From: a virus
Virus record (IMG/VR): IMGVR_UViG_3300045999_006174
Span: 1 to 37,263 of that record
DNA: 37,263 bases
Reading direction: 5' to 3' (one strand)
The notes beneath the pieces were generated by a model that was not told the DNA's origin, did not search any database, and saw only the letters and a program-made list of their open reading frames with translations. The position numbers and the translations under genes are program-made. Position 1 is the stretch's first letter. The number at the start of each line of letters is the position of its first letter. Of this stretch, positions 4,943 through 37,263 are shown in pieces.

Positions 4943-5100
4943 TTTGCCTTCTTTATGATAATCGGTTGATCTTCGATGATAACGACTTTCTTGCTAGTCT
5001 TTTTATTGTCATCTTTTTGTTCTAAAATAGCAATTCTCTCTTCTAATCTTTCGATAAGATCAGCTAGATATCGCATTGTTAATTGTGGCTTTTCACTCAT
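4939..5100 (-). CDS. 53-residue coiled-coil miniprotein
   Basis: A short gene reading MSEKPQLTMRYLADLIERL and continuing as a charged helix with heptad pattern (residues about 9-30), then a Lys-rich and Val/Ile-rich tail. AGGAG lies upstream of ATG 5100. The gene overlaps the tail hub stop by 8 bases and the next gene by ATGA, so it fits the coupling pattern of this operon. Its function is unknown; a small oligomerisation or fibre-connector peptide is possible. Confidence 0.65.
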   Translation of the reverse strand: MSEKPQLTMRYLADLIERLEERIAILEQKDDNKKTSKKVVIIEDQPIIIKKAK

Positions 5101-7720
5101 AGATAAAGCTCCTGTCTATGTATGCTCTTTTTGTATGATGAGATGATGCATTTAAGTATGTTGTAGGTTGGATGATGCCACCCGCTGACATGCCATGGTT
5201 GCTTGTAAAAGTGATTTGATTTGCATTGATAGAAGCAATTGTCTTTGTCAAGGTGGTTGCTTCTGATCCTTGTAAAACATAATCAACGATATCACCAGCC
5301 TTAAAATAGCTGATATCTGCATCAGAGTAAAAGGCTGATTCAATCTCAATTGTTGTTGTATTGATGATTGTAGCGATTTTAGCTGATGCATTCCATGAAG
5401 GAGAAGAATCGCCCAAGTGAATGAGTTTAAGTTCTGTACCTTCTCCCATAAGATCGATGCTGATTGATTGCACCATGGCAATCTTATTTGATACTCCATA
5501 AGCATCAGCATAACCCTTGAGAAATGCGCTAGTTATTTTTAGATATGATCCAACATCTAAAGCAAGGCCTTTACCTGTACCTATGGAAAGATGCCACATT
5601 CTCACCGCTTGACCATACAATCTAAAAAGCCTTGCATAAGTTGGCAAGAAATTCTCTAGAAAATCGCTTGCATTTGTACCCCCTAGAATGTCGCTAGTGA
5701 TGCCATATAAATCTAATTCCATTGATTTGGTTTCACCCGCTAGACGATTGATCGCATCGTAGTTATTAACAATTCTAGTCGTTGGTTCTTCTTGATGCAT
5801 ATCATATCTAAACTTAAATTGAGTTACGATATCTTCAAAGTTCGACCAATAAGGCGGCTTGCTTGCTAGAAAGTCAACATCTGATAAAGAAGTTTGATCT
5901 TCGTCCGCTTCATGCCCAAGGAGTACTAAAGAGATGCGAGGATTAAAGCTATCTCTATTCATGACAATACAAGCCCCCATCGTTTTAAGCATAGGATCAA
6001 GTATTTCTCTTAAAGTCAATTCATCAGCAGGTAGCGAGAACATCCAATCGGTTATTCCACTAGCTGAATTTAGGCTTAAAAATGATTGCTCATCAATCAT
6101 GCTTGAGTGTAAATTGCACCCCGTCAATTGTAAATCATAAGCCCCATTGATTGCACCACCCCCACCGCTTTCTAAGAGTTGTAAAATCACTTCACCCGCT
6201 GGGCGTCTAGTGATGATCATTCCCTTTGAAATCTCTATTGGAGAGCCTTCACCCAACCAATCGCCAAAAGGTGGCAACTTTCTATTTTCTGAGATATTCA
6301 TATCAAGATGCAAGAGATATGCACCGCCTACATCTTCTTCATGTGTAGCTAGTGCATTAACTACATCTTCACCGATTTTTATTTGTATTGCATAGAGATT
6401 GCCATCTGCTTCTGTTGGCAAGCCTAAAGAGTCTTGAACTAAAATATAAGGTTCGTCTCTATCTCTCCAACCTAAAGCAAATCCTCGAATGTCATAGAGA
6501 GCTGGATCAGCACCACCAAAGGGAAATTCTGTCACCGTAAATTTTAAGCCTAAATCTGATTGATAAACTCTATCATCTGTCTTTTCTCTTATTGGAGCTA
6601 AAGAGCCTAAAAAGCTGATACCAAATGAATGAGCTTGTGGATCAAATGCAATATAAGGCAAAGGCACATCAAAGGCAAATTGCTCATTGCTTGCTTGTAT
6701 GAGCAAATCAGAGTTATCGGAAAACACTAAAGCATCATCAAAGCCAAGAGTTTGAGATACTCTTAAAACATATCGTCCACTTCTCTTTAAAATAGCAAAC
6801 GGACCGCTAGGAAAAGTTGCACCATAATCATTGATCGTCTTGATGATCTCATCATGTGTTTTTAAGCCATTGCCTAAAGTTAATGGATACCATCCATAAG
6901 CTGAGAAATTCGGTACTCTAAAGACGAGAGGTGATAACTGATTTCTGATATCTCCATAATAGTGGACGCCTTGAGCCAATCTAGTTTTCTGAGTACCTGA
7001 AGAGACCTTATTGTCAAGCATGGCAGTTATAGGCAAGATTGAGATTGACACTGAATTTAAGCCTTCAATCGTTGGAGAGCTTTCTATGATACCTTGAAAA
7101 ATGATCTGATTGTCCCAAGTGTTGCCGTTCTGATCAACTGAGCAAGCATAGATTTTTGCTTGCCTACCTCTCCAAGATACCAATTCACTTGAAACTATAG
7201 GTGTATCAGTACCGCCCAAATAAATCTGATGCTGCTGTCTAAATCCCAATCGGTGGCTAGTTGTTATTGTATAGATGCCACCGCTCTCAGATTGGGAAGT
7301 ACAATAGAAACTCTCTGATCCAATATGCAAGAGATGAGGATAAGTCAATGATGGATTACTATCAACCATTAAATCAGGAGTATCATCAGACCTTAAAACA
7401 TTTGCAACAAGCTGACCACTCCAAATAGAGCTTGATCTTGATAGACGGCTAAAAATCACATGTGGATCAATATTTGACCCTCTCATCCTATCCATAGCCA
7501 AAGAGATTGAGATCGGCTGATATGTGGCAACGCCTCCACTTGGTTCTATTTCCGCTTGATATGGAGTTATCGACTGAATGCAATCTAAATCAGTATATGA
7601 AAGATCATAAAGGGATGATGCTGTGAATGGATTTGCTCCCATATAAAAGCGAGTCATTAAGCCTTGTATCTCCAAGCCAAAGACTCGATAACCTTGATCA
7701 TCTTGCAATTTAAAAGCCAT
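5093..7720 (-). CDS. Tail hub / central tail-tip protein
   Basis: An 875-residue protein and the largest gene between the tape measure and the fibre. By order it is the central tip or hub protein (a role like lambda J or the Dit/Tal pair), but no named domain can be assigned by eye. Sequence features: MAFKLQDDQGYRVFGLEIQG at the N-terminus; repeated phrases about surface-loop folds (FYCTSQSESGGIYTITTSH, 140-160); a Gly-rich ESGGGGAING segment around 525; and a C-terminal 130 residues rich in short beta strands. AAGGAG precedes ATG 7720, which overlaps the upstream stop as TAATG. No peptidoglycan-hydrolase motif is seen. Confidence 0.6.
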   Translation of the reverse strand: MAFKLQDDQGYRVFGLEIQGLMTRFYMGANPFTASSLYDLSYTDLDCIQSITPYQAEIEPSGGVATYQPISISLAMDRMRGSNIDPHVIFSRLSRSSSIWSGQLVANVLRSDDTPDLMVDSNPSLTYPHLLHIGSESFYCTSQSESGGIYTITTSHRLGFRQQHQIYLGGTDTPIVSSELVSWRGRQAKIYACSVDQNGNTWDNQIIFQGIIESSPTIEGLNSVSISILPITAMLDNKVSSGTQKTRLAQGVHYYGDIRNQLSPLVFRVPNFSAYGWYPLTLGNGLKTHDEIIKTINDYGATFPSGPFAILKRSGRYVLRVSQTLGFDDALVFSDNSDLLIQASNEQFAFDVPLPYIAFDPQAHSFGISFLGSLAPIREKTDDRVYQSDLGLKFTVTEFPFGGADPALYDIRGFALGWRDRDEPYILVQDSLGLPTEADGNLYAIQIKIGEDVVNALATHEEDVGGAYLLHLDMNISENRKLPPFGDWLGEGSPIEISKGMIITRRPAGEVILQLLESGGGGAINGAYDLQLTGCNLHSSMIDEQSFLSLNSASGITDWMFSLPADELTLREILDPMLKTMGACIVMNRDSFNPRISLVLLGHEADEDQTSLSDVDFLASKPPYWSNFEDIVTQFKFRYDMHQEEPTTRIVNNYDAINRLAGETKSMELDLYGITSDILGGTNASDFLENFLPTYARLFRLYGQAVRMWHLSIGTGKGLALDVGSYLKITSAFLKGYADAYGVSNKIAMVQSISIDLMGEGTELKLIHLGDSSPSWNASAKIATIINTTTIEIESAFYSDADISYFKAGDIVDYVLQGSEATTLTKTIASINANQITFTSNHGMSAGGIIQPTTYLNASSHHTKRAYIDRSFIYE

Positions 7721-26766: not shown

Positions 26767-26992
26767 GATCTAGCTTTCTGATGATCTTAGTTGTGATTTT
26801 CTCAATAGCATCATCATCATCGATTTCAAGAGCAAGATCAATTTGATCTCTTTGAAGACCGTCAAGCAATATCTTTTCAGCCAACTTAGAAATCTTAACT
26901 GAATGCCTATCGCTGATCGTGTCTAGTAGGCTGATCAGCTTAGTTGATACATATAGACTTAAAATCGATTTGCGATCTTTAGGTTTCATCAT
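26753..26992 (-). CDS. Small ribbon-helix-helix-like DNA-binding protein
   Basis: A 79-residue protein with a short basic N-terminal strand (PKDRKSILSLYVSTKL) and two helices (LLDTISDRHSVKISKLAEKI), matching ribbon-helix-helix regulators in layout, then an acidic stretch DDDDAIEK. The ATG at 26992 overlaps the SSB stop as ATGA; 26989 is an alternative. Likely a transcription regulator, but identified only by pattern. Confidence 0.5.
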   Translation of the reverse strand: MMKPKDRKSILSLYVSTKLISLLDTISDRHSVKISKLAEKILLDGLQRDQIDLALEIDDDDAIEKITTKIIRKLDHGNE

Positions 26993-27273
26993 AGAAATAC
27001 GACCTCAGAGGCAATCACTTTGATGTATTGCTTGCCTTCATGTTCGTTGATAACAATGCGACCAATAACGGTGATTTTGTCGCCTTTCTTTGCTTGACTC
27101 TGAACGATCCTCGCAAAGTTGCCCCACATTTCACAACTAAACCAAGTCGTCTTTTCTTCTCCCTTTACCTTTTCACTATAGGCAACTGAGAAATTAACTA
27201 CCTCTTTATCGCCAACTGTCTTGAGTTGTGGATCATTGCCAAGTCGTCCAATAAGTGTAAATCTATTGAGCAT
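26989..27273 (-). CDS. ssb: Single-stranded DNA-binding protein (short SSB)
   Basis: A 94-residue OB-fold protein starting MLNRFTLIGRLGNDPQLK, a standard SSB opening, with WFSCEMWGNFARI in the middle and GDKITVIGRIVINE later. It lacks the acidic C-terminal tail of bacterial SSBs, which binds partner proteins, so it may act only as a coat. The TAATG overlap couples it to the upstream gene. Confidence 0.9.
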   Translation of the reverse strand: MLNRFTLIGRLGNDPQLKTVGDKEVVNFSVAYSEKVKGEEKTTWFSCEMWGNFARIVQSQAKKGDKITVIGRIVINEHEGKQYIKVIASEVVFL

Positions 27274-27551
27274 TATTTTTTATCCTTTAGTTGTTTGTAC
27301 AAGTTTTGAATTTGTTTGATATGGTCTGTTGTGATTTTGGCTTTAGATAGATCAGCTATCTTTTCCTCAACCTCTTTATCTGAGAAATATTGTTGCTCAA
27401 TTGCATTGTTATGATCTGCTACCATATCGCCAAATATGATATTGATGCATAATTTTAAAGCTTCAGCAATCTCAGGTGCATCGTCTTTGAACATTGCATC
27501 AATGACTTGCTCAAGGCAAATCAGCCTGTTGATGAGTTTGATATTTAACAT
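27273..27551 (-). CDS. Unknown early protein (92 residues)
   Basis: The first gene of the long leftward series. It starts at ATG 27551 (MLNIKLINRL) with AGGAG upstream; a longer reading lacks a ribosome site. The protein is helical and slightly acidic, with two Cys and ending in KQLKDKK. No family is recognised. Its stop overlaps the SSB start, so the two are coupled. Confidence 0.6.
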   Translation of the reverse strand: MLNIKLINRLICLEQVIDAMFKDDAPEIAEALKLCINIIFGDMVADHNNAIEQQYFSDKEVEEKIADLSKAKITTDHIKQIQNLYKQLKDKK

Positions 27552-27636
27552 AAATTTTGTCTCCTGCTTTGTGTTATATAAACACATGAAAGTATAATAT
27601 TATATAATATTATATAATAATTTTCTAGGAGAAAAG
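27552..27636. promoter_or_regulatory. Divergent control region with palindromes
   Basis: This 85-base gap separates the leftward SSB/terminase series from the rightward ThyX cluster. It holds a perfect 22-base AT-only palindrome (27593-27614) and a 6-bp inverted repeat TGTGTT/AACACA (27570-27586). A rightward promoter fits TTGTGT (27569-27574), 18 bases, TATAAT (27593-27598). AGGAG stands before ThyX. Leftward -10 candidates lie in the same palindrome, but no good leftward -35 was seen. The dyads are operator-like. Confidence 0.55.
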
Positions 27637-28308
27637 ATGAAGATAAATGTATCAGATGGCTTTGTTGAATTGGTTGACCACATGGGAGATGATTTAGCAA
27701 TAGTGAACGCTGCTCGTGTCTCTTATGCTGGAGCAAGTAATGAATGGACTGATCGAGATGAAAGGCTTTTGCGATATCTTTGGGATCACAATCATTCAAG
27801 TCCCTTTAGACATGGCAACATAAAATTCAGAATTAAAGCACCAATCTTCATTTTAAGGCAATGGATGAAGCATCAAGTTGGCTGTGCATGGAATGAGCAA
27901 TCAGCACGATACACCAAGATTGAAGAGAGTTTTTTTTATCCTGATCATTTCAGATTGCAAGATACTAAAAACAAGCAAGGATCAAGTGGATGCCTTGATG
28001 ATAATAGAGAGGACGAGGCTTTGACTTTGCTTGCTCAAGGCTATCAGGTCGCTTACTACAATTATTTAAGATTGCTTGATTTGGGAGTATGTAGAGAGCA
28101 AGCGAGAATGATTTTGCCCGTTGGGATTTATAGTGAATGCATCTGGTCTGCTAGTACTCAGGCAATCATGCACTTTTTAAAGCTTCGTCTTGACCATCAT
28201 TCTCAATTTGAGATGCAAGAATTTGCTAAAGCTGTATATACTATTGCGTCTAGTATCTTCCCAAAAACGATGGAGCTTATCGATGCAATGCCTAAGATGC
28301 CACAATGA
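27637..28308 (+). CDS. thyX: Flavin-dependent thymidylate synthase ThyX (variant motif)
   Basis: A 223-residue enzyme that makes dTMP from dUMP with FAD, NADPH and methylene-folate. SPFRHGNIKFRIKAPIFILR leads to the signature region at 74-92 (RQWMKHQVGCAWNEQSARY). NE-x-S-x-R is intact, but the usual R-H-R is K-H-Q, so flavin contacts may differ. The dUMP-side CREQARMILPVG segment is present. It is normal in length, and AGGAG precedes ATG 27637. It fits with the class II RNR and deaminase as a nucleotide-supply set. Confidence 0.9.
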   Translation: MKINVSDGFVELVDHMGDDLAIVNAARVSYAGASNEWTDRDERLLRYLWDHNHSSPFRHGNIKFRIKAPIFILRQWMKHQVGCAWNEQSARYTKIEESFFYPDHFRLQDTKNKQGSSGCLDDNREDEALTLLAQGYQVAYYNYLRLLDLGVCREQARMILPVGIYSECIWSASTQAIMHFLKLRLDHHSQFEMQEFAKAVYTIASSIFPKTMELIDAMPKMPQ

Positions 28309-28465
28309 AATCAAATCAACCTTAGCTGGATCAAGTATTGAGTACCACTATTGCAAAAAGTGCCGAGCAATCCTTGATCAAAATGCGATCATCCTATCAT
28401 ACGATGATATTTCTTATGATGAGAGTTGGGATGATATCACCAAAGACGAGAGCGAAGATGAATAG
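28283..28465 (+). CDS. Zinc-ribbon miniprotein (60 residues)
   Basis: A short gene overlapping the end of ThyX by 26 bases. ATG 28283 has GGAG 8 bases upstream, which fixes this start over earlier in-frame ATGs. The protein has C3-x-x-C6 and C24-x-x-C27, a classic zinc ribbon, followed by a very acidic tail (YDDISYDESWDDITKDESED). The tail looks like a DNA mimic or partner-binding segment (inference). It also overlaps the next gene's start by 8 bases, so all three are coupled. Confidence 0.7.
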   Translation: MQCLRCHNEIKSTLAGSSIEYHYCKKCRAILDQNAIILSYDDISYDESWDDITKDESEDE

Positions 28466-28934
28466 CTTTTTTGATGTATGTTGGCTTGTGATGGGAATGA
28501 TCTTTAATCCCAATCAAGTCAAACAAGATTTAGGCTGGGAGAAGATCGTGGCTAAGTCAATCCCAAGCAGGATGAGAGCTTGCCAACAAGTAGCCTCAAC
28601 AGCTGAGAGAATGGGAGTTGATCCAAATCTGATGATTGCGATTGCTTTCTATGAGAGCAAGTTTGAGAGAGGCCTTGTATCGTCTGCAGGTGCTGAAGGT
28701 ATCATGCAAGTGAAAAAGCAATTTGTTGATTGTCAAGGTTGCGATGAGATTGAGTATGGTATCAAGGCCTATCAAACATGGCTGACAACAAGTCAAGGCG
28801 ATGTTTGTCTTGCTCTCGGTCGCTATGCTGTAGGCAATAAAGGCAAATGTGGAAAGAGATCTAAAGCGATTATCAAGCTTGCTTCTGAAATAGCTTGTCT
28901 TGCCTCCAAGGATGATGATTGCTATGACTGCTAA
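28458..28934 (+). CDS. Lytic transglycosylase (SLT family) with hydrophobic N-terminus
   Basis: A 158-residue protein from ATG 28458. The catalytic-type motif FYESKF (E66) and SAGAEGIMQV (76-85), then EYGIKAYQTWL and ALGRYAVGN, match soluble lytic transglycosylases, which cut the glycan strands of peptidoglycan. A hydrophobic N-terminus (FFDVCWLVMGMIF, 4-16) suggests export, as a signal-anchor. Six or more Cys in the last 70 residues (CQGC, KGKCGK, CYDC) suggest disulphides outside the cytoplasm. Odd place: it lies in the nucleotide cluster, far from the M15 lysin and holin. Confidence 0.8.
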   Translation: MNSFFDVCWLVMGMIFNPNQVKQDLGWEKIVAKSIPSRMRACQQVASTAERMGVDPNLMIAIAFYESKFERGLVSSAGAEGIMQVKKQFVDCQGCDEIEYGIKAYQTWLTTSQGDVCLALGRYAVGNKGKCGKRSKAIIKLASEIACLASKDDDCYDC

Positions 28935-29367
28935 AGATAAGGCATTTTTGAGTATGGCTGAGATCATGGCTAGCCTCTCACCATGTAGCAGGGCAAAAGT
29001 TGGAGCGGTGATAGTCAAGGGAGATGTGCCTATCATCTCTTCGTTCAATGGGATTGCTCGCAAGCAAAGCGGCCTTTGTGGAGGTGCTGATTGTCTTAGA
29101 GATAGATGTAAAATAGCAAGCGGATCAGAAAGCCAAATTGGTTGCCACCATGCTGAATTTAATGCAATTGCGAATGCTGCTAAGAATGGGATATCAACAG
29201 ATGGATGCTCGATTTATGTGACTGCTCCACCTTGCTTAATGTGTGCCAAGCTAATTCATCATGCTGGGATTAAAGCCGTTATTTATGAAGATCGAGATAA
29301 TAGGTGGATATCAACAGGCGAAGAGTATTTATCTATGAATGCGATTGATATTTTAAAGATTAGATAG
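28924..29367 (+). CDS. dCMP deaminase-like cytidine deaminase
   Basis: A 147-residue enzyme from ATG 28924 (MTAKDKAFL); earlier ATGs at 28912/28915 sit too close to the AAGGA. Zinc and proton-shuttle motifs are H76-A-E78 and P103-C-L-M-C107. CSRAKVGAVIV (21-31) is typical of dCMP deaminases of the ComE type. It turns dCMP into dUMP, the ThyX substrate, so the cluster forms one route to dTMP. An extra cysteine set (LCGGADCLRDRC) lies at 51-62, seen in several phage dCMP deaminases. It overlaps the transglycosylase by 11 bases and ends the cluster. Confidence 0.85.
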   Translation: MTAKDKAFLSMAEIMASLSPCSRAKVGAVIVKGDVPIISSFNGIARKQSGLCGGADCLRDRCKIASGSESQIGCHHAEFNAIANAAKNGISTDGCSIYVTAPPCLMCAKLIHHAGIKAVIYEDRDNRWISTGEEYLSMNAIDILKIR

Positions 29368-29538
29368 ATCAGCCCAAGTTTTGAGTTTAGTATTTTACAA
29401 GCTTCTTCACTGAAAAAAAAGGGCTGAGATTAGTGTCTGCTCTAAGGTGCTACGCGTCAATGTGATCGTTGTCTTATATGCCTCATCAAGGTTGAGCAGA
29501 CAAAGCTTAAACACTGGAGGAAGCTATTTGATTTCAAA
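29368..29538. other. Gene-free convergent gap with two long-range inverted repeats
   Basis: These 171 bases lie between converging genes and contain no plausible gene. A perfect 9-bp pair TGTCTGCTC (29434-29442) / GAGCAGACA (29494-29502) encloses 51 bases. A perfect 7-bp pair TCAGCCC (29369-29375) / GGGCTGA (29421-29427) encloses 45 bases. A 14-base palindrome covers 29526-29539. None has the stem-then-T-run form of a simple terminator. They could form side-by-side RNA hairpins on either strand: a small RNA, a paired terminator, or an endonuclease-associated element. Confidence 0.5.
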
Positions 29539-30309
29539 TTATTGATTTTTATCAATAAAAGCCTCTTGTACTTTTAAAAGATGAGATCTTCCAATAATCC
29601 AACCATCTTGCAAATAGCTTAGCAAAACAGATTGATTCACTCTCTTTTGTCTGCCAGTTGTACGATCAAAATTTAGAGCCTTTGAGATGATTTTATCACC
29701 ATGCTTTTTAACAATAATAGCTGATGAGCAAGTTAATCGATAGCCTTCAAGCATGTATTTAAGAAGATCAAGAGAATCGATAAAAATAATAATGCTATCT
29801 TTTTTTATTTTTAATTTTTTATTTCTTCCACCTATTCCACCTGTTCCACCTATTCCACCTGTTCCACCTGTTCTCAAATTATACATACATCCAAGATGTT
29901 TAGAATATCTTTCAACTACAATACTATTTACTAAACTCTCTTCTGCTTTAAAGGCATCGGCTGATGATCTGTAAAACTTTACAATGAACCTTAAAAAGCT
30001 ATCTTTGCCATATTGTCTAACTGCTTCTTGAATCTTAATTCCTCCACCTAAATAATGTTTGAGGGCAAGTTTTAATCTAGCGTTTGCACCTTGTCCTTTT
30101 TCTAAATCATCAGAAACTGTTCGCTTTCCAATATAGAAAAATCCATTGATCTTATTGATAGTCAAATAAACATAATGATATTTCCCATCATCTCCTAAAG
30201 TTGGAGTGATATTATCATCAAGATGATTGAGGATGCTTTCAACAAAGATTTGAGCTTCATCATGGATAAAGTTGATGTCATCAGGTGAATAAGTTGGATT
30301 GAGTTTCAT
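29539..30309 (-). CDS. GIY-YIG endonuclease (homing type)
   Basis: A 256-residue protein. The nuclease core is visible: YVYL at 46-49, FYIGK at 58-62, and a catalytic-type Glu in KAEESLVNS (123-124). A glycine-rich linker (GGTGGIGGTGGIGG, 147-160) leads to a basic C-terminal region likely to bind DNA. Free-standing GIY-YIG enzymes in phages cut allelic sites to spread themselves. It lies just after the replication initiator, with AAGGA before ATG 30309. An in-frame 9-base repeat in the linker is listed separately. Confidence 0.85.
   Translation of the reverse strand: MKLNPTYSPDDINFIHDEAQIFVESILNHLDDNITPTLGDDGKYHYVYLTINKINGFFYIGKRTVSDDLEKGQGANARLKLALKHYLGGGIKIQEAVRQYGKDSFLRFIVKFYRSSADAFKAEESLVNSIVVERYSKHLGCMYNLRTGGTGGIGGTGGIGGRNKKLKIKKDSIIIFIDSLDLLKYMLEGYRLTCSSAIIVKKHGDKIISKALNFDRTTGRQKRVNQSVLLSYLQDGWIIGRSHLLKVQEAFIDKNQ
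29826..29870 (-). repeat. Five 9-base tandem repeats coding the Gly-rich linker
   Basis: On the plus strand five units of TTCCACCTA/TTCCACCTG follow one another; read on the minus strand they encode the alternating GGI/GGT residues of the endonuclease linker. The length could change by slippage without breaking the frame, since the unit is 9 bases. Confidence 0.9.
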
Positions 30310-30321
30310 TCTGTTTTTCCT

Positions 30322-31605
30322 TTACTTGATTTCAATCTTAGTAAATAGTTTTTGATTTTGATCAGGCTTAGAGAAGATAACAATTGATCCATCAAAAGAA
30401 GATACTAAATCATCAAATTGTTGCATCATCCTATCTTTGAATTTGCTTGATGCTGAAGGTGGATTGAAATCAGTGATGATGATGATATCCATCTTGCCAA
30501 AGTCGTCTTTGATAGTCGATAGAGTACCGCCCTTATTTCTTTGATAGTCATCATATCTTAACTCAAACAATTCTTTGAGAGATAGAAAAGCAATCCTAGG
30601 GGCTCCAAACTGTGCTTGATTTGGATAATGCACCTCAAAGAGATTTTGCTTAAAGATACCTACTGCTAATTGCTCTAATTGAGTTTCATCATTTCCAACG
30701 ATTTGAAGCTTGTGTTTGCCCCCTGTGCATATATCCACTACCAAATCCCTATTATCATCGCTTAGAGTGCCTTTAAATTGCTGAATAGAGATATCTTTAT
30801 GTTCAGCCTTAAAGTTAACATAAGGCAATTTCAATTTTCTTGAGATATGTATCTGTCTTGACTCGGTAGGCCAAACATCATTTAGATCATGAATTGAGTA
30901 GTATTTGCCTGTATCTTCACAAGCCTTAAAATTGGATGAAGCTTTAGGCAGTCTTGAATTTAGCTTTTTAGTTTCTTGATTGACATATAGCAGCTTAGCA
31001 AATTCTATTGCCTCCCAATTTGTTGACGGTAGATCAATGAATGGATTTGCATCATGATTGACTTGAGATTGTACTTGCTCAGGCTGAACGGTCTCGATCT
31101 GTGTTTTTACTTTTCTTTTATTTATTTTCTTTTGATTATCTTTATTAGATATATCTTTATTTGGGGGGTAAAATTCCACTGATTGATTAGGGGATTTTTC
31201 CACTGATTGATTAGGGGATTTTTCCACTGATTGATTAGGGGATTTTTCCCTTGATTGAACATCAGATTTATAAAAATCAGTGTATGCTCTCCAGTATCTA
31301 GCTAAACAAAAATCACTCAAGATCAGCTGATTGACTGATAGCACTTTCTTTTTGATGATGATGTTGGCCTTGATCATTTTAGGGATTGCATCTTTTACTT
31401 GATGTTCGGATAATCCAATCAATTTACCAATGAACGCATATGAAACACAAATAGATCTGCCATCTGATTTATCATCTAATTCAATGAGCTCAATCATTCT
31501 CATCAAGATTGATTTGCTATTGGCGATTGAAGACAAGATATCGCATCGATTGATGTTATTAAGAACGCCAAATGATGGCATAAGCTCGCTAAATAGCTTT
31601 GACAT
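30322..31605 (-). CDS. Replication initiator, with DnaC-like degenerate C-terminal domain
   Basis: A 427-residue protein. The N-terminal part (about 20-100, SYAFIGKLIGLSEHQVKDAI ... KMIKANIIIKKKVLS) is a winged-helix region of the type found in phage initiators. Residues 118-144 repeat SPNQSVEK three times, encoded by perfect 24-base repeats, and a Lys-rich linker follows. The C-terminus (about 295-415) has the order of DnaC/IstB loaders: LQIVGNDETQLEQLAVG in the Walker A place without GK, RIAFLSLKELFELR, KMDIIIITDF in the Walker B place, and SIVIFSKPD at the end. It may bind the origin and load the DnaB encoded divergently. AGAAAGG precedes ATG 31605. Confidence 0.6.
   Translation of the reverse strand: MSKLFSELMPSFGVLNNINRCDILSSIANSKSILMRMIELIELDDKSDGRSICVSYAFIGKLIGLSEHQVKDAIPKMIKANIIIKKKVLSVNQLILSDFCLARYWRAYTDFYKSDVQSREKSPNQSVEKSPNQSVEKSPNQSVEFYPPNKDISNKDNQKKINKRKVKTQIETVQPEQVQSQVNHDANPFIDLPSTNWEAIEFAKLLYVNQETKKLNSRLPKASSNFKACEDTGKYYSIHDLNDVWPTESRQIHISRKLKLPYVNFKAEHKDISIQQFKGTLSDDNRDLVVDICTGGKHKLQIVGNDETQLEQLAVGIFKQNLFEVHYPNQAQFGAPRIAFLSLKELFELRYDDYQRNKGGTLSTIKDDFGKMDIIIITDFNPPSASSKFKDRMMQQFDDLVSSFDGSIVIFSKPDQNQKLFTKIEIK
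31103..31258. other. Candidate replication origin inside the initiator gene
   Basis: Three perfect 24-base direct repeats with a fourth degenerate copy (to about 31258) sit next to a roughly 60-base run of about 85% A+T (31103-31162). Repeats plus an AT-rich unwinding region within an initiator gene is the layout of the lambda origin, where iterons lie in gene O. The function is inferred from layout; no footprint or replication data are implied. Confidence 0.5.
31174..31245. repeat. Three perfect 24-base direct repeats (iteron-like)
   Basis: Copies start at 31174, 31198 and 31222 with period 24 and begin TTCCACTGATTGATTAGG on the plus strand. All three are identical base for base, and a weaker fourth begins at 31246. 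A repeat kept identical at third codon positions points to recent duplication or to selection on the DNA itself. Confidence 0.95.
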
Positions 31606-31711
31606 TGTAAAACCTTTCTTTTAATGATTTCGCCTATTGTATCTTTTTAAATTGACATTGCAAAAATAAAGTGATACGAATTTAAAAAAACTCACTACAA
31701 GGGGAATAAAC
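31606..31711. promoter_or_regulatory. Divergent promoter region between initiator and Cro-like gene
   Basis: Leftward: TTGCAA (31663-31658), 16 bases, TACAAT (31641-31636), leading to the initiator. Rightward: a perfect TTGACA (31652-31657) with a weaker -10 near 31673-31680 (GATACGAA). The two -35 boxes are back to back, so one repressor could shut both. GTATC (31639-31643) and GATAC (31673-31677) are an inverted pair that could be operator half-sites. AGGGG stands before the HTH gene. Confidence 0.6.
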
Positions 31712-31942
31712 ATGAAAGTCAACTTGAAATTAAATCGAGTAAAAGAAACTACAGGGCTGACTATCGTTCAGATTGCAGAAAAGATGAATGTTAAAAGTCG
31801 CATTCAAGTCTATCAGATGATCAAAGAAGAAGGATGCTCTATGAAAAACGCAATGCGACTTGAGCGAGCTACTGGCATCAGTCATCAGTTTTTTTTGTAT
31901 CCATTGCCTACCGCTCTTCAATTTTTACCAAAGCAAGACTAA
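31712..31942 (+). CDS. Cro-like small HTH regulator
   Basis: A 76-residue protein with an HTH (about 16-50): LTIVQIAEKMNVKSRIQVYQ then MIKEEGCSMKNAMRLERATG, as in Cro/C1-type regulators, with a short C-terminal tail. It starts with AGGGG upstream and is the first rightward gene from the divergent promoter region, the usual position for Cro. It probably controls replication genes; with no integrase seen, a lysogeny switch is not supported. Confidence 0.75.
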   Translation: MKVNLKLNRVKETTGLTIVQIAEKMNVKSRIQVYQMIKEEGCSMKNAMRLERATGISHQFFLYPLPTALQFLPKQD

Positions 31943-31945
31943 AAA

Positions 31946-33421
31946 ATGACTACACAAGAAAACAATGATCAGCCCAATCAATCTAATAAGTTTAATGATG
32001 GATGGGATCACAATGTAAGAATTTCAGATATGATTTCAGACGGTCAAATCTTTGATGAATCTGATTTAATCGCAAGTGCTATGAGAGCGGCTAGGATTAT
32101 TTCAACGCTCATGATCGATGGATACGATGAAATCAAAGAGATGATTTTTAGGCTTATTAAGTCTGATGACATGATGCTTGAGCATACTCTTTGCATGCTT
32201 TTCAGAATGGCTGTTAGGATCAGAGCAAAAGGCACAAAAGAGAATCCATCACCTATCACTATCCCAGCAATCATCGAAGAGTATAAAGCTAGACATTCTT
32301 TTAATTCTAAAGAATTGCCACATTCTCAGCCCCCTGAGATGATCAGCCAATTCGTGATGAATTTGTCAATCAATCATGATCCTTTTGTCTTATATCCAAT
32401 TGCATATGCTGAAGTGAAAAGGCATGTTCATTTTTATGTTACCTCTCAAATCGTTGCCTTAGATTTCTTTAAGGGAAAGCTTCTTAAAGAAGGCTATGAT
32501 ATGGCATGGGTGGAAGATCGACATAAAACTAAGGTTGATCTTTATAAGCAATTGCTCCCAGTGGAAAGCGAACAATTCAAACATCAGATTGCTAAAACGA
32601 TTCAGATGATGCGAGCAGTCCCAACTGGAGTGAGTACCGACCTCGCTGAATTGGATAAATATTTAAAGCTTCAAAAGGGATGCCTTTACTACATTGGGGG
32701 GCGTCCAGGTGTTGGCAAGACTGCATTAGCTTTGCACCTTTTAAAGCTCAAAGATATTTGCAATCGCAAGACCATATTTATAAGCCTTGAGATGAGTCAA
32801 GATCAGTTAATCGCAAGGTTACTTTGCTCAGTCAGTGGAATCGATTATGCAAATATTAAAGATCGATCTTTAGATGAAGCACCTATCAAGGTGGTAGAGA
32901 AGATTGTTGATGCTGCTGAAAAGCTTGAGGCCTTGAACATAACGCTTGTTGATAAGGGCGTTAGCGATATAGCTTCCGCTGTGTCTCTTTGCAAAAACAT
33001 TTTAGATCATCAAGGCGAATTGGGGATGATTGTGATTGACTATCTCCAATTGATGAAGGGATCAAGTCAGAATAAAAATCAAATTAGAGAACAAGAGGTT
33101 AGCGAGATCAGCAGATCATTAAAGCTACTTGCCAAAGAATGTGATTGCCCTGTTGTGTGCTTGACTCAAGTTAATAGAGAGGCTGAGAAGAGACAAGACA
33201 AGCGACCAGGATTAAGCGATCTTAGAGAGTCGGGATCTCTTGAACAAGATGCTGATGCTGTGCTGATGCTTTATAGAGAAGACTACTATGCTAAAGAGTT
33301 TTCAGTTGATGCTGGTCAACTTGAGATTATCGTTGCAAAAAATAGACATGGATCATTGGGGACAGCCAAAGTTAAGTACGATCGCAATACTCAGACAATA
33401 TCAAATCTTGATAGTTTTTAA
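31946..33421 (+). CDS. dnaB: Replicative DNA helicase, DnaB family
   Basis: A 491-residue protein. The C-terminal RecA-like motor is complete: Walker A GGRPGVGKT (251-259), SLEMS (280-284), Walker B VIDYLQLM (363-370), LTQVNR, LRESGSLEQDADAVLML and AKNRHGSLG. The N-terminal 220 residues are helical and diverge from the bacterial DnaB N-domain, which may alter loading. It is a hexameric 5'-3' helicase, likely loaded by the divergent initiator. It starts 3 bases after the HTH gene, with a weak ribosome site. Confidence 0.92.
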   Translation: MTTQENNDQPNQSNKFNDGWDHNVRISDMISDGQIFDESDLIASAMRAARIISTLMIDGYDEIKEMIFRLIKSDDMMLEHTLCMLFRMAVRIRAKGTKENPSPITIPAIIEEYKARHSFNSKELPHSQPPEMISQFVMNLSINHDPFVLYPIAYAEVKRHVHFYVTSQIVALDFFKGKLLKEGYDMAWVEDRHKTKVDLYKQLLPVESEQFKHQIAKTIQMMRAVPTGVSTDLAELDKYLKLQKGCLYYIGGRPGVGKTALALHLLKLKDICNRKTIFISLEMSQDQLIARLLCSVSGIDYANIKDRSLDEAPIKVVEKIVDAAEKLEALNITLVDKGVSDIASAVSLCKNILDHQGELGMIVIDYLQLMKGSSQNKNQIREQEVSEISRSLKLLAKECDCPVVCLTQVNREAEKRQDKRPGLSDLRESGSLEQDADAVLMLYREDYYAKEFSVDAGQLEIIVAKNRHGSLGTAKVKYDRNTQTISNLDSF

Positions 33422-33542
33422 TCTTTTGTATAAATTTTTTTTAACATAGTTATTTTTTTTATTGACAATATGATTAGAATGTTATAAATTATTTTTACAA
33501 AACAAAACAGAAAACATTTTACAACCTACTCAGGAGTACAAA
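33422..33542 (+). promoter_or_regulatory. Intergenic gap with rightward promoter
   Basis: A T-rich stretch follows the helicase gene. Then comes a perfect TTGACA (33462-33467) with a -10 region at 33483-33490 (TATAAATT; 15 to 17 bases spacing depending on which hexamer is counted), and AGGAG just before ATG 33543. It would drive the two small genes and the annealase separately from DnaB. No stem was seen with the T-run, so a terminator is not claimed. Confidence 0.6.
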
Positions 33543-33740
33543 ATGAACCAATCACCTAAATGTGGATTGTTCCCAACAGTCGATAAAAGACACCTTCAAG
33601 AAGGCATCTCTCAAGAACAACGCCAAGCAATCGCAAAAAAGCAAAGCATTGGAGATATCATTAACAATGCTGGAGTGATATTCTTCCATATGTTTCTTTG
33701 GGCGATGTTTTTCTTTTCACTACTTTTTTTCGGAGAATAA
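33543..33740 (+). CDS. Small tail-anchored membrane protein (65 residues)
   Basis: The N-terminal 40 residues are polar and helical (SQEQRQAIAKKQSIGD), and residues about 43-63 form one strong membrane segment (GVIFFHMFLWAMFFFSLLFF). AGGAG precedes the start, and a promoter lies directly upstream, so it is likely expressed early. Its function is unknown; candidates are host takeover, membrane anchoring of replication, or superinfection exclusion (inference). Confidence 0.65.
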   Translation: MNQSPKCGLFPTVDKRHLQEGISQEQRQAIAKKQSIGDIINNAGVIFFHMFLWAMFFFSLLFFGE

Positions 33741-33744
33741 GCAG

Positions 33745-33990
33745 ATGAGCCAACTCAACACTCTCTCAAGACTCAATATCATCCAACTTGATGGCACAGG
33801 TCCATTGATGCATCAACTTGATGATTTAACAACAGACTGGACAATCGATTGCGATGATGTGGAGATCATCACTGATCGTCTCAAGATCATCATCCCAATC
33901 GCAACTCTTAACCTCTCAATCGATGCAGAACCTTCTGAAATCATTGCTGCTATCTATGATCGATTTGTAGCAATTTTGAAAAACAATTAA
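33745..33990 (+). CDS. Unknown small acidic protein (81 residues)
   Basis: An acidic, Asp/Ile-rich protein with alternating strands (TDWTIDCDDVEIITDRLKII), no membrane segment and no motif. GGAG lies 9 bases before ATG 33745, overlapping the end of the membrane-protein gene. It is between that gene and the annealase, likely on one message. Acidic composition would permit binding to a basic host protein (speculative). Confidence 0.55.
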   Translation: MSQLNTLSRLNIIQLDGTGPLMHQLDDLTTDWTIDCDDVEIITDRLKIIIPIATLNLSIDAEPSEIIAAIYDRFVAILKNN

Positions 33991-34001
33991 GGAAAAACTA
34001 A

Positions 34002-34928
34002 ATGGCAAATCATAAACTTTTAGAATCTCTCTCTGATGTCAATGCTATTGCTGACAGTATGGAACAACTCGTAAAACTTGCTGCTTATCTCACTGCAGGC
34101 ACAAATTGGAATGCTCAACAACTCGTGACAGCTTATCTCTCTTATGGGATGATGCATGGTTGGAACATTGCCCAAACTATGGAAAAGATGAACATCATTA
34201 AAGGCAAGATCACTTATCAAGCTAGTGCTATGTTTGGCATTGTCATTGCTTCTCCCAAGTGCAAGTCATGGAAAGTCTTATCAAACACTGAAGAAGAATG
34301 CTCAATTGAATTTACAAGAGGCGACAACAATCAAAAGTATGTAGTCACTTTCACGATTGCATTGGCACAGAAGCAAGGTTTGACAAATAATCGCCAATGG
34401 CAGACTATGCCCAAGCAAATGCTTATGGCTAGATGCAAGTCAATGGCTGTTCGTGATGTGTTTGGCGATGTAATCAGTGGCTATGATACGATTGAGATGG
34501 CTGATAATATGGATATGTCTGAAGAAGAAAGACTAGAAATCTTGAGTCAAGAGCTTGATACTCCAATCTATGCTGAAAGACAACCTGTTCAAAGAGCAAA
34601 GCCGGGCGTTAAGGCTGGGGCAGATACAAAAGCCAAGCCTCAAGTTCAACCTGTACAAGTTCAACCTGTGCAAGTACAAGCACCACCACAACAGCCTCAA
34701 CAAGTGCAGCAGTCAGCACCACCACCACAGCCCCAACAAGTGCAACAATCAGCACCGCCCAAGACTCAAGCACCACCACCTGATCAAGCTTCACTCTTCC
34801 CAAGCGATCAAAAGCAAGCCGTTGAATATCAATCCTATCGAGACAAGGATTTAAGAGGAGGCTGGGCTGATGCCGACTACGATGAAGATGATGCTAGGGA
34901 TTGGAGAGAGTCGTGGAAAATTAAATAA
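34002..34928 (+). CDS. RecT-like single-strand annealing protein
   Basis: A 308-residue protein. The core (about 20-165) shows the pattern of RecT-type annealases: ALAQKQGLTNNRQW (120-133), PKQMLMARCKSMAVRDVFGD (137-156), then SGYDTIE (159-165). It anneals homologous single strands in replication and recombination. A Gln/Pro-rich, low-complexity linker (about 215-275, QPVQVQ and PPPQPQQVQQSAPP repeats) leads to an acidic C-terminus that could recruit SSB. AAGGA precedes ATG 34002. Its end overlaps the RNR end by 8 bases, tail to tail. No exonuclease partner gene is seen. Confidence 0.6.
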   Translation: MANHKLLESLSDVNAIADSMEQLVKLAAYLTAGTNWNAQQLVTAYLSYGMMHGWNIAQTMEKMNIIKGKITYQASAMFGIVIASPKCKSWKVLSNTEEECSIEFTRGDNNQKYVVTFTIALAQKQGLTNNRQWQTMPKQMLMARCKSMAVRDVFGDVISGYDTIEMADNMDMSEEERLEILSQELDTPIYAERQPVQRAKPGVKAGADTKAKPQVQPVQVQPVQVQAPPQQPQQVQQSAPPPQPQQVQQSAPPKTQAPPPDQASLFPSDQKQAVEYQSYRDKDLRGGWADADYDEDDARDWRESWKIK

Positions 34929-36861
34929 GGCAGACCCCACCAGCGCAAGCAGGTTCAACACTAGGATTTTCTTTAAACCCTCCTACATTTAAATCGACCT
35001 TAGACCAATCAGCCAAGAGCAATTTATTATATTTAGAAATCATATGTGCATTTGTATCGCTGACAGTTTGATAAGGTGCATTCTCATAAACATGATCGCC
35101 ATAATCGGATAAAAGAGAAATGCCTTTAACGGTATCTCTAAGCGACCAAATTCTATCCGTTAGATCATCCCATTCATCAGCCTTGACGGTGCAAGTATTA
35201 GACACATTATGAGTTAATCCGAATTGATCTTTTTCCCTAAGTTGTGTTGTTGGCTTGACCCAGTGCTTTTGAATAAAAGCGACCATCGTCAAAAAGTCTT
35301 TACTAGATAAATTTTCTCTAAGCATTGCACAATATGGGGCTTCACAAGCAAAAGAAACGATCCCAACTTGTGCGTCGCTATCATCGCACACTTCGGGCAA
35401 CTTGCTTAAAATCTCTTGCCAAATAGGATTTATCTTATTTATTCGCATCGTTCTAATATATCGTCTTGCATGATATGGATGGATACCAGCTGAACAGCCC
35501 GCAACCGTTGAACTATTGCCTGATGGCTTGACAGTTGTGCATCTTAGAGCGGGATTGATCTTGATTAACTTAGCAACTTCCTTATTTACAGATACAACCT
35601 CTTGCGAACATTTTTTAAGCAAGTTTTCATCAAAGATCAGATCAGACCTGCTCATAATACCCGTCATAGAAACACCTAATAAAGCATCTCTCTCTATGAT
35701 CTTTTTAGTAGTCTCTCCAAGATAACCCGTCTTTGTGTAGCTTGCTTGAAGTGTACCTAAGAAAGCAGCTGCTTTACATGCACCTAAAAAATCATCAGCA
35801 TCATCAAGGTTTGCAACAACAATCTCATTTAAATTGCATACAGCCCACCCGCTTGAAGTGTTGCCTTGATCGTCCTTGAATGTTGGATATAAGCCTATTT
35901 CTCCACATGGATTTGTTGAAAATTCTTTATCATAGCAAAAGAAAAAGCCGGGCTCTCCGAATTGTCTTGCGTTGTCAATGATCTGAGTAAATACAGATTT
36001 TTTCTCAAGTCCATCAAGTAGGATTTGAGCTGAAATATTCGCATAAGCTCGTTGCGGATTATCTTGCCACCAATCGCCGGTCTTAGCAGTCATCATCTCT
36101 TCATCATCAGGAGAAAATAACGCAATTGTTGCCGCTCGTCTTGAGCTGAGTAAAGCGGCGTGGCTTATGTGCATGAACATGTCAAAACACTGGATTGGTC
36201 TTAATTTGTCTTGTGCTTGATCGACAGCTTGATCAAGAATAGATCTCACCTTTTCAATAGCAACCTCAAGTACTCTCGGACCAGGTGCAACGCCACCGAT
36301 TGAAATGGGAGAACCTTCGGGCCTAACTTGATCATAATGGAAGTTGATGCAATATTTAGCTTCATCTTCACTTGATGGAAGATAACTTTTTGTTAGCACA
36401 TGCACAGCTTCAGCCCATCCTTCGATAGAGTCTTCAACAACATGAATTTTCTTTAGTCTAGAGTCTCTTTGATCTTTTGAAATTAAAGCGGGTAGTTTGG
36501 CGATATGATGCTTTTGTACTGAAAAACCGACACCGCATCCGCTCATGAGCAGCCAAAAACCTTCAGCAAAAAAACGCACTCTATCGATATATGAAGCAGT
36601 GCAATTGTACATTCGCATATTGTTTCTCTCAATAGCAATACCACCGAATTGTGTTGATCTTTGAGATGGGAAAACCTTTTTTTTATAAACATAGTTTTGA
36701 AAAACTTGCTCGATATCCATACTTAAAAAAGGAAATTTCTTTTGATGCATTTGCTTGACTCTTGCCATTGCATCTAAATAAGTTTCTCGCTTGCCATCAG
36801 CTTTAACATGAGCGTATTGGGTAGCAAAAGCGACTTCACCTAAAATTTTATTTTGTGACAT
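34921..36861 (-). CDS. nrdJ: Class II (B12-dependent) ribonucleotide reductase
   Basis: A 646-residue monomeric-type enzyme (like Lactobacillus RTPR) from ATG 36861 with GGAG upstream; the TTG 39 bases earlier is less likely. N317-P-C319-G-E321-I holds the thiyl-radical Cys and Glu of the active site. YNC (87) and SGCGVGFS (107-114) lie earlier. CAGGVC near the C-terminus (639-644) is the redox pair for re-reduction. It makes deoxynucleotides with adenosylcobalamin, with or without oxygen. It directly follows the holin-like gene, so it sits at the end of the late series, unusual for a nucleotide enzyme. Confidence 0.92.
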   Translation of the reverse strand: MSQNKILGEVAFATQYAHVKADGKRETYLDAMARVKQMHQKKFPFLSMDIEQVFQNYVYKKKVFPSQRSTQFGGIAIERNNMRMYNCTASYIDRVRFFAEGFWLLMSGCGVGFSVQKHHIAKLPALISKDQRDSRLKKIHVVEDSIEGWAEAVHVLTKSYLPSSEDEAKYCINFHYDQVRPEGSPISIGGVAPGPRVLEVAIEKVRSILDQAVDQAQDKLRPIQCFDMFMHISHAALLSSRRAATIALFSPDDEEMMTAKTGDWWQDNPQRAYANISAQILLDGLEKKSVFTQIIDNARQFGEPGFFFCYDKEFSTNPCGEIGLYPTFKDDQGNTSSGWAVCNLNEIVVANLDDADDFLGACKAAAFLGTLQASYTKTGYLGETTKKIIERDALLGVSMTGIMSRSDLIFDENLLKKCSQEVVSVNKEVAKLIKINPALRCTTVKPSGNSSTVAGCSAGIHPYHARRYIRTMRINKINPIWQEILSKLPEVCDDSDAQVGIVSFACEAPYCAMLRENLSSKDFLTMVAFIQKHWVKPTTQLREKDQFGLTHNVSNTCTVKADEWDDLTDRIWSLRDTVKGISLLSDYGDHVYENAPYQTVSDTNAHMISKYNKLLLADWSKVDLNVGGFKENPSVEPACAGGVCLI

Positions 36862-36903
36862 GATCATCTCCATGTGAAAGGGATGATCATTAGAACACAA
36901 ATC

Positions 36904-37146
36904 TTATTTATTTTTTAGAAAATCAACATTTGTCTCAATTCTTTCAAGAATTACTGTGTGCTGATTTAAAGTCTTATTGATCATGTCTAGCTCAGCATCT
37001 GTTTTTTCTTGCTTGACAAGCAAAGCCATTGTCTGATGTTCGAGCAATGCAATTCTCTTATCATATGATGAGAAGATCTTAAAGGCTGGTAAAAGAGCGG
37101 TGATAACGGCTGTTAATGCACTGATTGAGATCATATCTGAGTTCAT
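36904..37146 (-). CDS. Holin-like protein, second copy (other allele)
   Basis: Encodes the same 80-residue protein as 95-337, identical at every residue, although about 16 bases differ. All differences are silent, including a Leu codon changed at two positions (CTC to TTA). A real second gene cannot be excluded, but a strain variant at the circular junction is more likely. Confidence 0.85.
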   Translation of the reverse strand: MNSDMISISALTAVITALLPAFKIFSSYDKRIALLEHQTMALLVKQEKTDAELDMINKTLNQHTVILERIETNVDFLKNK

Positions 37147-37150
37147 CTTG

Positions 37151-37263
37151 TCACCCCTTCCATTGTGTCAATGTTCCACGAACATCATAATGTACAAAGG
37201 TTTCATAGATACCTACCCCGCCTTTTTTCATCTTGCCTTGATCAATCAAACGTAGAATAGTTT
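37151..37263 (-). CDS. M15 peptidase, C-terminal fragment, divergent allele (cut by window edge)
   Basis: The last 36 codons of an M15A peptidase: LIDQGKMKKGGVGIYETF followed by VHYDVRGTLTQWKG. The zinc-binding HYD is kept. About 21 of 36 aligned residues match 342-719, with a two-residue gap before FVHYD. Sequence beyond the window edge would hold the rest. It shows that the endolysin gene varies sharply while the holin-like neighbour does not. Confidence 0.85.
   Translation of the reverse strand, partial: TILRLIDQGKMKKGGVGIYETFVHYDVRGTLTQWKG

Follow-up and report, generated by a model that had tools for sequence, protein, structure and literature searches.

A phage gene family joining a winged-helix initiator, in-gene repeats and a DnaC-derived domain: a candidate one-gene origin and loader module with ATPase motifs lost in two of four clades

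Results

Gene layout at the initiator locus

We analyzed a metagenomic IMG/VR virus record of 37,263 bases, referred to here as the window. Its minus strand carries an ORF of 427 amino acids (P0001, 30322..31605), annotated as a fused initiator-loader gene, which reads from N to C terminus as a winged helix, 24-bp repeats lying within the gene, an AT-rich tract and a C-domain. The same layout recurs in about 30 homologous contigs, which fall into four clades. A first-pass annotation of this DNA had proposed an ORF at these positions with a winged-helix-type N-terminus, and both proposals held up: the ORF is genuine, on the minus strand, and an AF2 model predicts a winged-helix domain at residues ~30–96 (31318..31518, minus), with the elements H30-43, E51-54, H56-62, H67-79, E83-88 and E91-96 at a pLDDT mostly of 61–89. 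Foldseek of this model also gave winged-helix and initiator matches, and matches of the window protein to PHROG families named ‘replication initiation O-like’ were weak (E 0.003–0.03, best 0.0033). The model was built from a 16-row alignment that included the motif-keeping relatives described below, and is moderate overall (mean pLDDT 55.9; winged helix and residues 270–427 mostly 60–89, the C-domain blocks mostly 60–87; residues 185–280 of low confidence). A single-sequence AF2 model of the window protein was rejected (pLDDT 34.7).

Wherever this was checked, the initiator gene stands back to back with an HTH gene and a DnaB gene. In the window, these encode a small Cro-like HTH protein of 76 amino acids (31712..31942, plus), divergent from the initiator gene and with homologues in the same place in contigs L020, L021, L022 and L024, and a DnaB-type helicase (31946..33421, plus; PF03796, 2.3e-77), the presumed client of the loader. 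The helicase has a divergent N-domain, and the DnaB N-domain model found no match in its first ~226 residues. The clade-B helicase (L020, 3416-5281) has 621 amino acids versus 491 in the window and carries extra N-terminal sequence. Besides the helicase, no window protein contains a GxxxxGK[TSN] motif.

Directly downstream of the initiator gene lies a gene for a GIY-YIG (SegE-like) endonuclease (29539-30309, minus), which is retained in L004 and L007, whereas L002, L003, L005 and L006 have different sequence in its place; L021, L022 and L024 have GIY-YIG homologues in the same spot (~47–53% identity). This pattern suggests a mobile endonuclease that is swapped where the initiator gene ends. 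Inside the endonuclease gene, a 9-bp unit is repeated 5.3 times (29826-29873) and encodes a GGTGGI-type run. The region 26989-37146 of the window holds a large nucleotide and replication gene set of the phage's own, including SSB, ThyX (27637-28308), dCMP deaminase (28900-29367), a RecT-like protein (34002-34928) and ribonucleotide reductase (34921-36900). The window proteins that were scanned included no integrase, and the terminase has a distant cyanophage match only. The record ends (1-347 and 36810-37156) are 95% identical over 347 bases, and contig L003 spans the junction of the ends; the genome therefore probably has terminal redundancy or is circularly permuted, and the assembly probably mixes strain variants.

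Family and distribution

Diverged relatives were reached by searching with the adjacent helicase, and further scans filled four clades: clade A (the window and 6 contigs), clade B (7 contigs, among them L020, L119 and L120), clade C (4 contigs, including L021 and L112) and clade D (12 contigs, including L022 and L024). All members that cover that part of the gene have the winged helix, then tandem repeats of 21–24 bp, then the C-domain, and the fusion of initiator and loader that had been proposed for the window recurs in relatives of all four clades. A check set beforehand concerned relatives that lack the repeats and carry a separate loader: none lacks the repeats, and a separate DnaC/IstB match was found neither in the window nor in a 35-kb clade-B record, both of which may be incomplete. 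In a helicase tree, the helicases of the four clades are monophyletic (100/100), those of clade A being sister to those of clade B (100/98). In every clade, the fusion gene is paired with this one divergent DnaB clade.

The family is known from uncultured contigs alone, and its four clades are a small sample. We found no full-length relative in the cultured phages, plasmids or prokaryotic genomes searched. Against cultured phages, tblastn with the window protein gave no match, and tblastn with L022 gave partial matches to stand-alone loaders only, at E 0.2 or worse; two scans of genome contigs found no relative. The fusion gene of contig L111 is split (4962-5324 and 5328-6329) by an in-frame stop that lies precisely between the winged helix and the iteron array; this may reflect a sequencing error or a genuine split.

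Candidate iterons and the AT-rich tract

The in-gene array (31174..31258, minus) is made of three perfect copies of a 24-bp unit, at 31174-31245 (codons 121–144), and a degenerate half copy; Tandem Repeats Finder delimits the same span with 3.5 copies, as the top-scoring tandem array in the window. The first-pass annotation had reported perfect repeats at codons 118–144 with an AT-rich flank: the three 24-base copies were recovered, the start was corrected to codon 121, and the flank corresponds to a tract of 60 bases directly after the array (31102..31161, 87% AT), the most AT-rich in the gene and a putative unwinding region. Six near-identical contigs from other metagenome assemblies carry 2, 3 or 4 copies of the unit, and the array is therefore real and polymorphic.

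Tandem repeats of 21–24 bp occupy an equal position in the gene in all four clades, and the strongest AT-rich tract adjoins them in three of the four, the exception being clade B (L020). The encoded peptides are wholly unlike between clades (EKSPNQSV, PMDKN, TTQMGIIE and TTENTTIE). For sequence pairs within clades B, C and D, dS was 0.06–0.28 in the repeat block versus 0.5–2.0 in the flanks, and dN in the block equalled or exceeded dS, the reverse of both flanks. Among other blocks of equal size, synonymous change was as low in 5 of 341 for L020/L119, in 1 of 316 for L022/L111 and in 24 of 315 for L021/L112; the close pair L119/L120 gave no such signal. Low dS together with relaxed dN looks like what an origin would produce, with the DNA held and the peptide not, and concerted evolution of the tandem copies may contribute to this signal.

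The unit found in clade-A siblings, TCCCCTAATCAATCAGGGGA, and the lambda iteron, TCCCCTAAAACGAGGGA, have their arms in common. When units were aligned locally to the lambda origin, the match was equalled by 1 in 1000 codon shuffles for L007, by 5 in 1000 for the window and by most codon shuffles for the other clades. An inverted repeat within the iteron is clear in L119 (1/2000 shuffles) and L007 (31/2000) and weaker in L021 (68/2000); in the same shuffle test, neither the window copy, with its one arm mismatch, nor clade D reached significance. We regard the in-gene repeats as candidate iterons, presumably bound by the protein that they help to encode, and as a candidate origin.

Ancestry of the C-domain

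A DnaC-type AAA+ domain with degenerate ATPase motifs is predicted at residues ~283–427 (30325..30759, minus). When the AF2 model was compared with the PDB by Foldseek, the first match was 6qem_G (E. coli DnaC, 3e-4) and the second 3ec2 (Aquifex DnaC, TM 0.62 on the target); the matches included DnaA and IstB as well. The predicted structure thus has the AAA+ fold of the DnaC/IstB/DnaA clade, and the DnaC/IstB character assigned to this region from the order of its motifs is borne out, DnaC being the best solved-structure match of the C-domain model.

At the sequence level, the window C-domain matched the intact C-domain of L022 with a BLASTP E of 1e-15, computed for a 1e8-letter database (31% over 188 aa). 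The family phrog_50, ‘DnaC-like helicase loader’, in turn matched L021 at 8.9e-10 and L022 at 2.8e-6, a profile of two stand-alone phage loaders (one DnaC, one DnaI) matched the intact clades C and D at 5e-10 to 2e-8, and a profile of the intact C-domains aligned with three stand-alone loaders at an hhalign probability of 97.6%. Because a direct comparison of the window-clade C-domain with stand-alone loaders was not significant (hhalign 0.5%), the chain of homology from the window to DnaC is transitive, by way of the intact relatives. Searches of PDB sequences with phmmer and profiles of the whole family gave short helix-turn-helix matches only, and those with the intact C-domains gave weak P-loop and replication-factor matches only, with DnaC at E 0.75. 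Taken together, these comparisons support the derivation of the window C-domain from a DnaC-type AAA+ loader through its intact relatives.

Two candidates were set aside along the way. Matches of phrog_50 within the window were rejected as a loader, since they map to the P-loop of DnaB and not to the fusion gene, and the SecTim467 ‘replicon initiation protein’, a structural match, was rejected as a second example of the fusion, having no AAA+ motif. In addition, IstB transposition helpers go with a partner transposase, IstA, and with element ends; the window proteins scanned included no transposase, and the fusion gene neighbors a DnaB gene in all clades, so that it does not look like an IstB-type helper.

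Loss of the ATPase motifs and selection on the C-domain

The motif-keeping relatives L021, L022, L024 and L112 have a Walker A motif reading GASGTGKTH, GSAGSGKTH or GPAGSGKTH, a Walker B motif DIICIDDF and a C-terminal Arg, and clades C and D as a whole keep GxxGxGKTH, DIICIDDF and this Arg. Clades A and B are without all three, having lost Lys and Thr from Walker A, the first Asp of Walker B and the segment with the Arg. In the window, the place of Walker A reads GNDETQLEQ (residues 304–312; 30670..30696, minus), compared with GSAGSGKTH in L022 and GASGTGKTH in L021, and that of Walker B reads DIIIITDF (residues 373–380; 30466..30489, minus), compared with DVICIDDF or DIICIDDF in relatives, while the C-terminal segment that bears the Arg-finger-like Arg is absent. 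The absence of GK from the Walker A place (GNDETQLEQL) and the reading DIIIITD at the Walker B place had been noticed from the window alone; alignment with the motif-keeping relatives agrees with both observations and identifies the replacements as Leu for the Lys, Glu for the Thr that follows it and Thr for the first Walker B Asp. Because relatives with intact Walker motifs exist, the ancestor was a DnaC-type ATPase whose motifs were later lost, and the likeness is not accidental. Judged by these residues, the window protein is a DnaC-derived domain and not an ATPase loader.

The C-domain has nevertheless not decayed. Its dN/dS is 0.03–0.17 among variants of the window clade and ~0.11 for L020/L119 in the sister clade (46–54 nonsynonymous versus 75–76 synonymous changes), and the ATPase-dead C-domain is under purifying selection and is no decaying relic. 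As the helicases of clades A and B are sisters, the loss is most simply explained by a single event in the ancestor of the two clades; there may also have been two losses.

Discussion

We think it likely that the locus represents a one-gene module, combining initiator, origin and loader for the phage's own DnaB, that is ATP-free in the window and its sister clades. The winged helix would bind the 24-bp iterons inside its own gene, as in lambda, the AT-rich tract beside them would then open, as at the lambda origin, and the DnaC-derived C-half would capture the phage's own divergent DnaB and bring it to the opened strand. The AAA+ domain of the window clade and of its sister would no longer bind or hydrolyze ATP, and should for that reason serve as a structural adaptor with no ATPase activity; what sets the helicase free would then have to be contact with the origin or with single-stranded DNA, or by the ATPase of DnaB itself. 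It has been reported that the Walker A mutant K112R of E. coli DnaC loads DnaB at close to wild-type levels, and that DnaC opens and loads DnaB without ATP hydrolysis, turnover serving mainly for efficiency, control and switching (PMC8213410). Therefore, a permanently ATP-free, origin-tethered loader is plausible. As to history, we lean towards a phage family that merged origin, initiator and loader, and of which half subsequently lost the DnaC-type ATPase, leaving a natural pseudo-ATPase DnaC that loads without ATP and whose domain is still selected.

Several alternatives bear on this reading. The phage DnaB could load itself or borrow a host loader, the dead AAA+ half then being only a platform for oligomerization or docking, with no ring opening. 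In phage D3, an O protein is directly followed by DnaB without an annotated loader, and modules of the P22/D3 type likely operate in this way; most bacteria supply DciA; and with Walker A, Walker B and the Arg finger all lost, there is no motor left. However, the D3 O protein has 329 amino acids and is about 100 shorter than the protein described here, in which a full DnaC-derived domain is under strong purifying selection, and docking need not be separate from ring opening, since DnaC opens DnaB without hydrolysis (PMC8213410). We therefore judge this explanation rather unlikely.

It is considerably less probable still that the repeats are a feature of the protein, a variable linker, with the origin lying elsewhere. 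Tandem repeats expand easily in disordered linkers, and the siblings carry 2–4 copies, as such a linker might; yet the peptides differ completely between clades while the repeat position and the 21–24-bp period stay, an AT-rich tract follows the repeats in three of the four clades, dN is at or above dS in the repeat block and below it in both flanks, and the lambda iterons sit at codons 117–144 of O. An even slighter chance attaches to the protein being mainly an autoregulator, or to the dead AAA+ domain inhibiting host DnaB loading. Regulators often use winged helices, and phage proteins that block host loaders are known, such as the S. aureus DnaI inhibitor (PMC4887207). Across all four clades, however, the gene is always paired with one DnaB clade, relatives have an intact loader site in the same position, and the window offers no other initiator candidate, all of which speaks against both readings.

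The purpose of the ATPase in DnaC-type loaders is still debated. Here a natural lineage appears to have dropped the ATPase and kept the domain under selection, with motor-keeping close relatives as controls, which amounts to nature's own experiment in removing ATP from a helicase loader. Furthermore, as a single polypeptide unites origin, initiator and loader, the minimal needs of origin-directed loading become testable with one gene and the adjacent helicase. The parts and the logic are already known, and the combination is apparently undescribed: the open-licence literature searched yielded no account of a fusion between an O-type initiator and a DnaC-type loader, and none of a DnaC whose ATPase is naturally dead.

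Among known systems, the closest at the origin is lambda O with ori-lambda, together with the O proteins of Stx phages, which likewise combine a winged-helix-type initiator with iterons in its own gene, although in sequence the N-domain is only weakly similar to O families. O-type initiators bind their iterons and form an O-some. The iterons occupy codons 117–144 in lambda and 121–144 here, are in both cases imperfect inverted repeats with T-CCC / GGG-A arms, and adjoin an AT-rich tract, which in lambda is also an A-purine tract; moreover, iteron number differs between close lambda-type phages as well (PMC7466680). In lambda, however, the C-half of O binds P, a loader encoded separately that has no relation to DnaC and brings in the host DnaB (PMC6391071), whereas here the C-half is a DnaC-derived domain fused to the initiator and the phage encodes its own DnaB. 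With a DnaC-derived C-half and no separate loader found in the window, the locus resembles O at the origin and yet is no O/P system.

Compared with DnaC and DnaI, the C-domain has the same (here predicted) fold (6qem, 3ec2) and motif order and is likewise encoded with a DnaB helicase, but these loaders, which themselves originate from phage (PMC5109545), stand alone, whereas here the domain follows a winged-helix initiator and, in the window clade and its sister, has lost Walker A, Walker B and the Arg finger. DnaC and DnaI loaders attach to the LH-DH module of DnaB by an N-terminal helix. Lambda P and DciA likewise load independently of ATP and have no ATPase activity themselves (PMC6391071, PMC8213410). 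Their folds are unrelated to this one, P bearing no relation to DnaC and DciA containing a KH-like domain, whereas the ATP-free state here is derived from an ATPase. The modules of the P22/D3 type resemble this locus in placing a phage initiator beside a DnaB that the phage itself encodes, and D3 has no annotated separate loader, but no DnaC-like domain was recognized by eye in the shorter D3 O protein. Finally, Orc1/Cdc6 and DnaA also join, in a single polypeptide, origin binding by a winged helix or HTH and a helicase-recruiting AAA+ domain; they differ from the window protein in that the AAA+ domain comes first and retains an active ATP switch.
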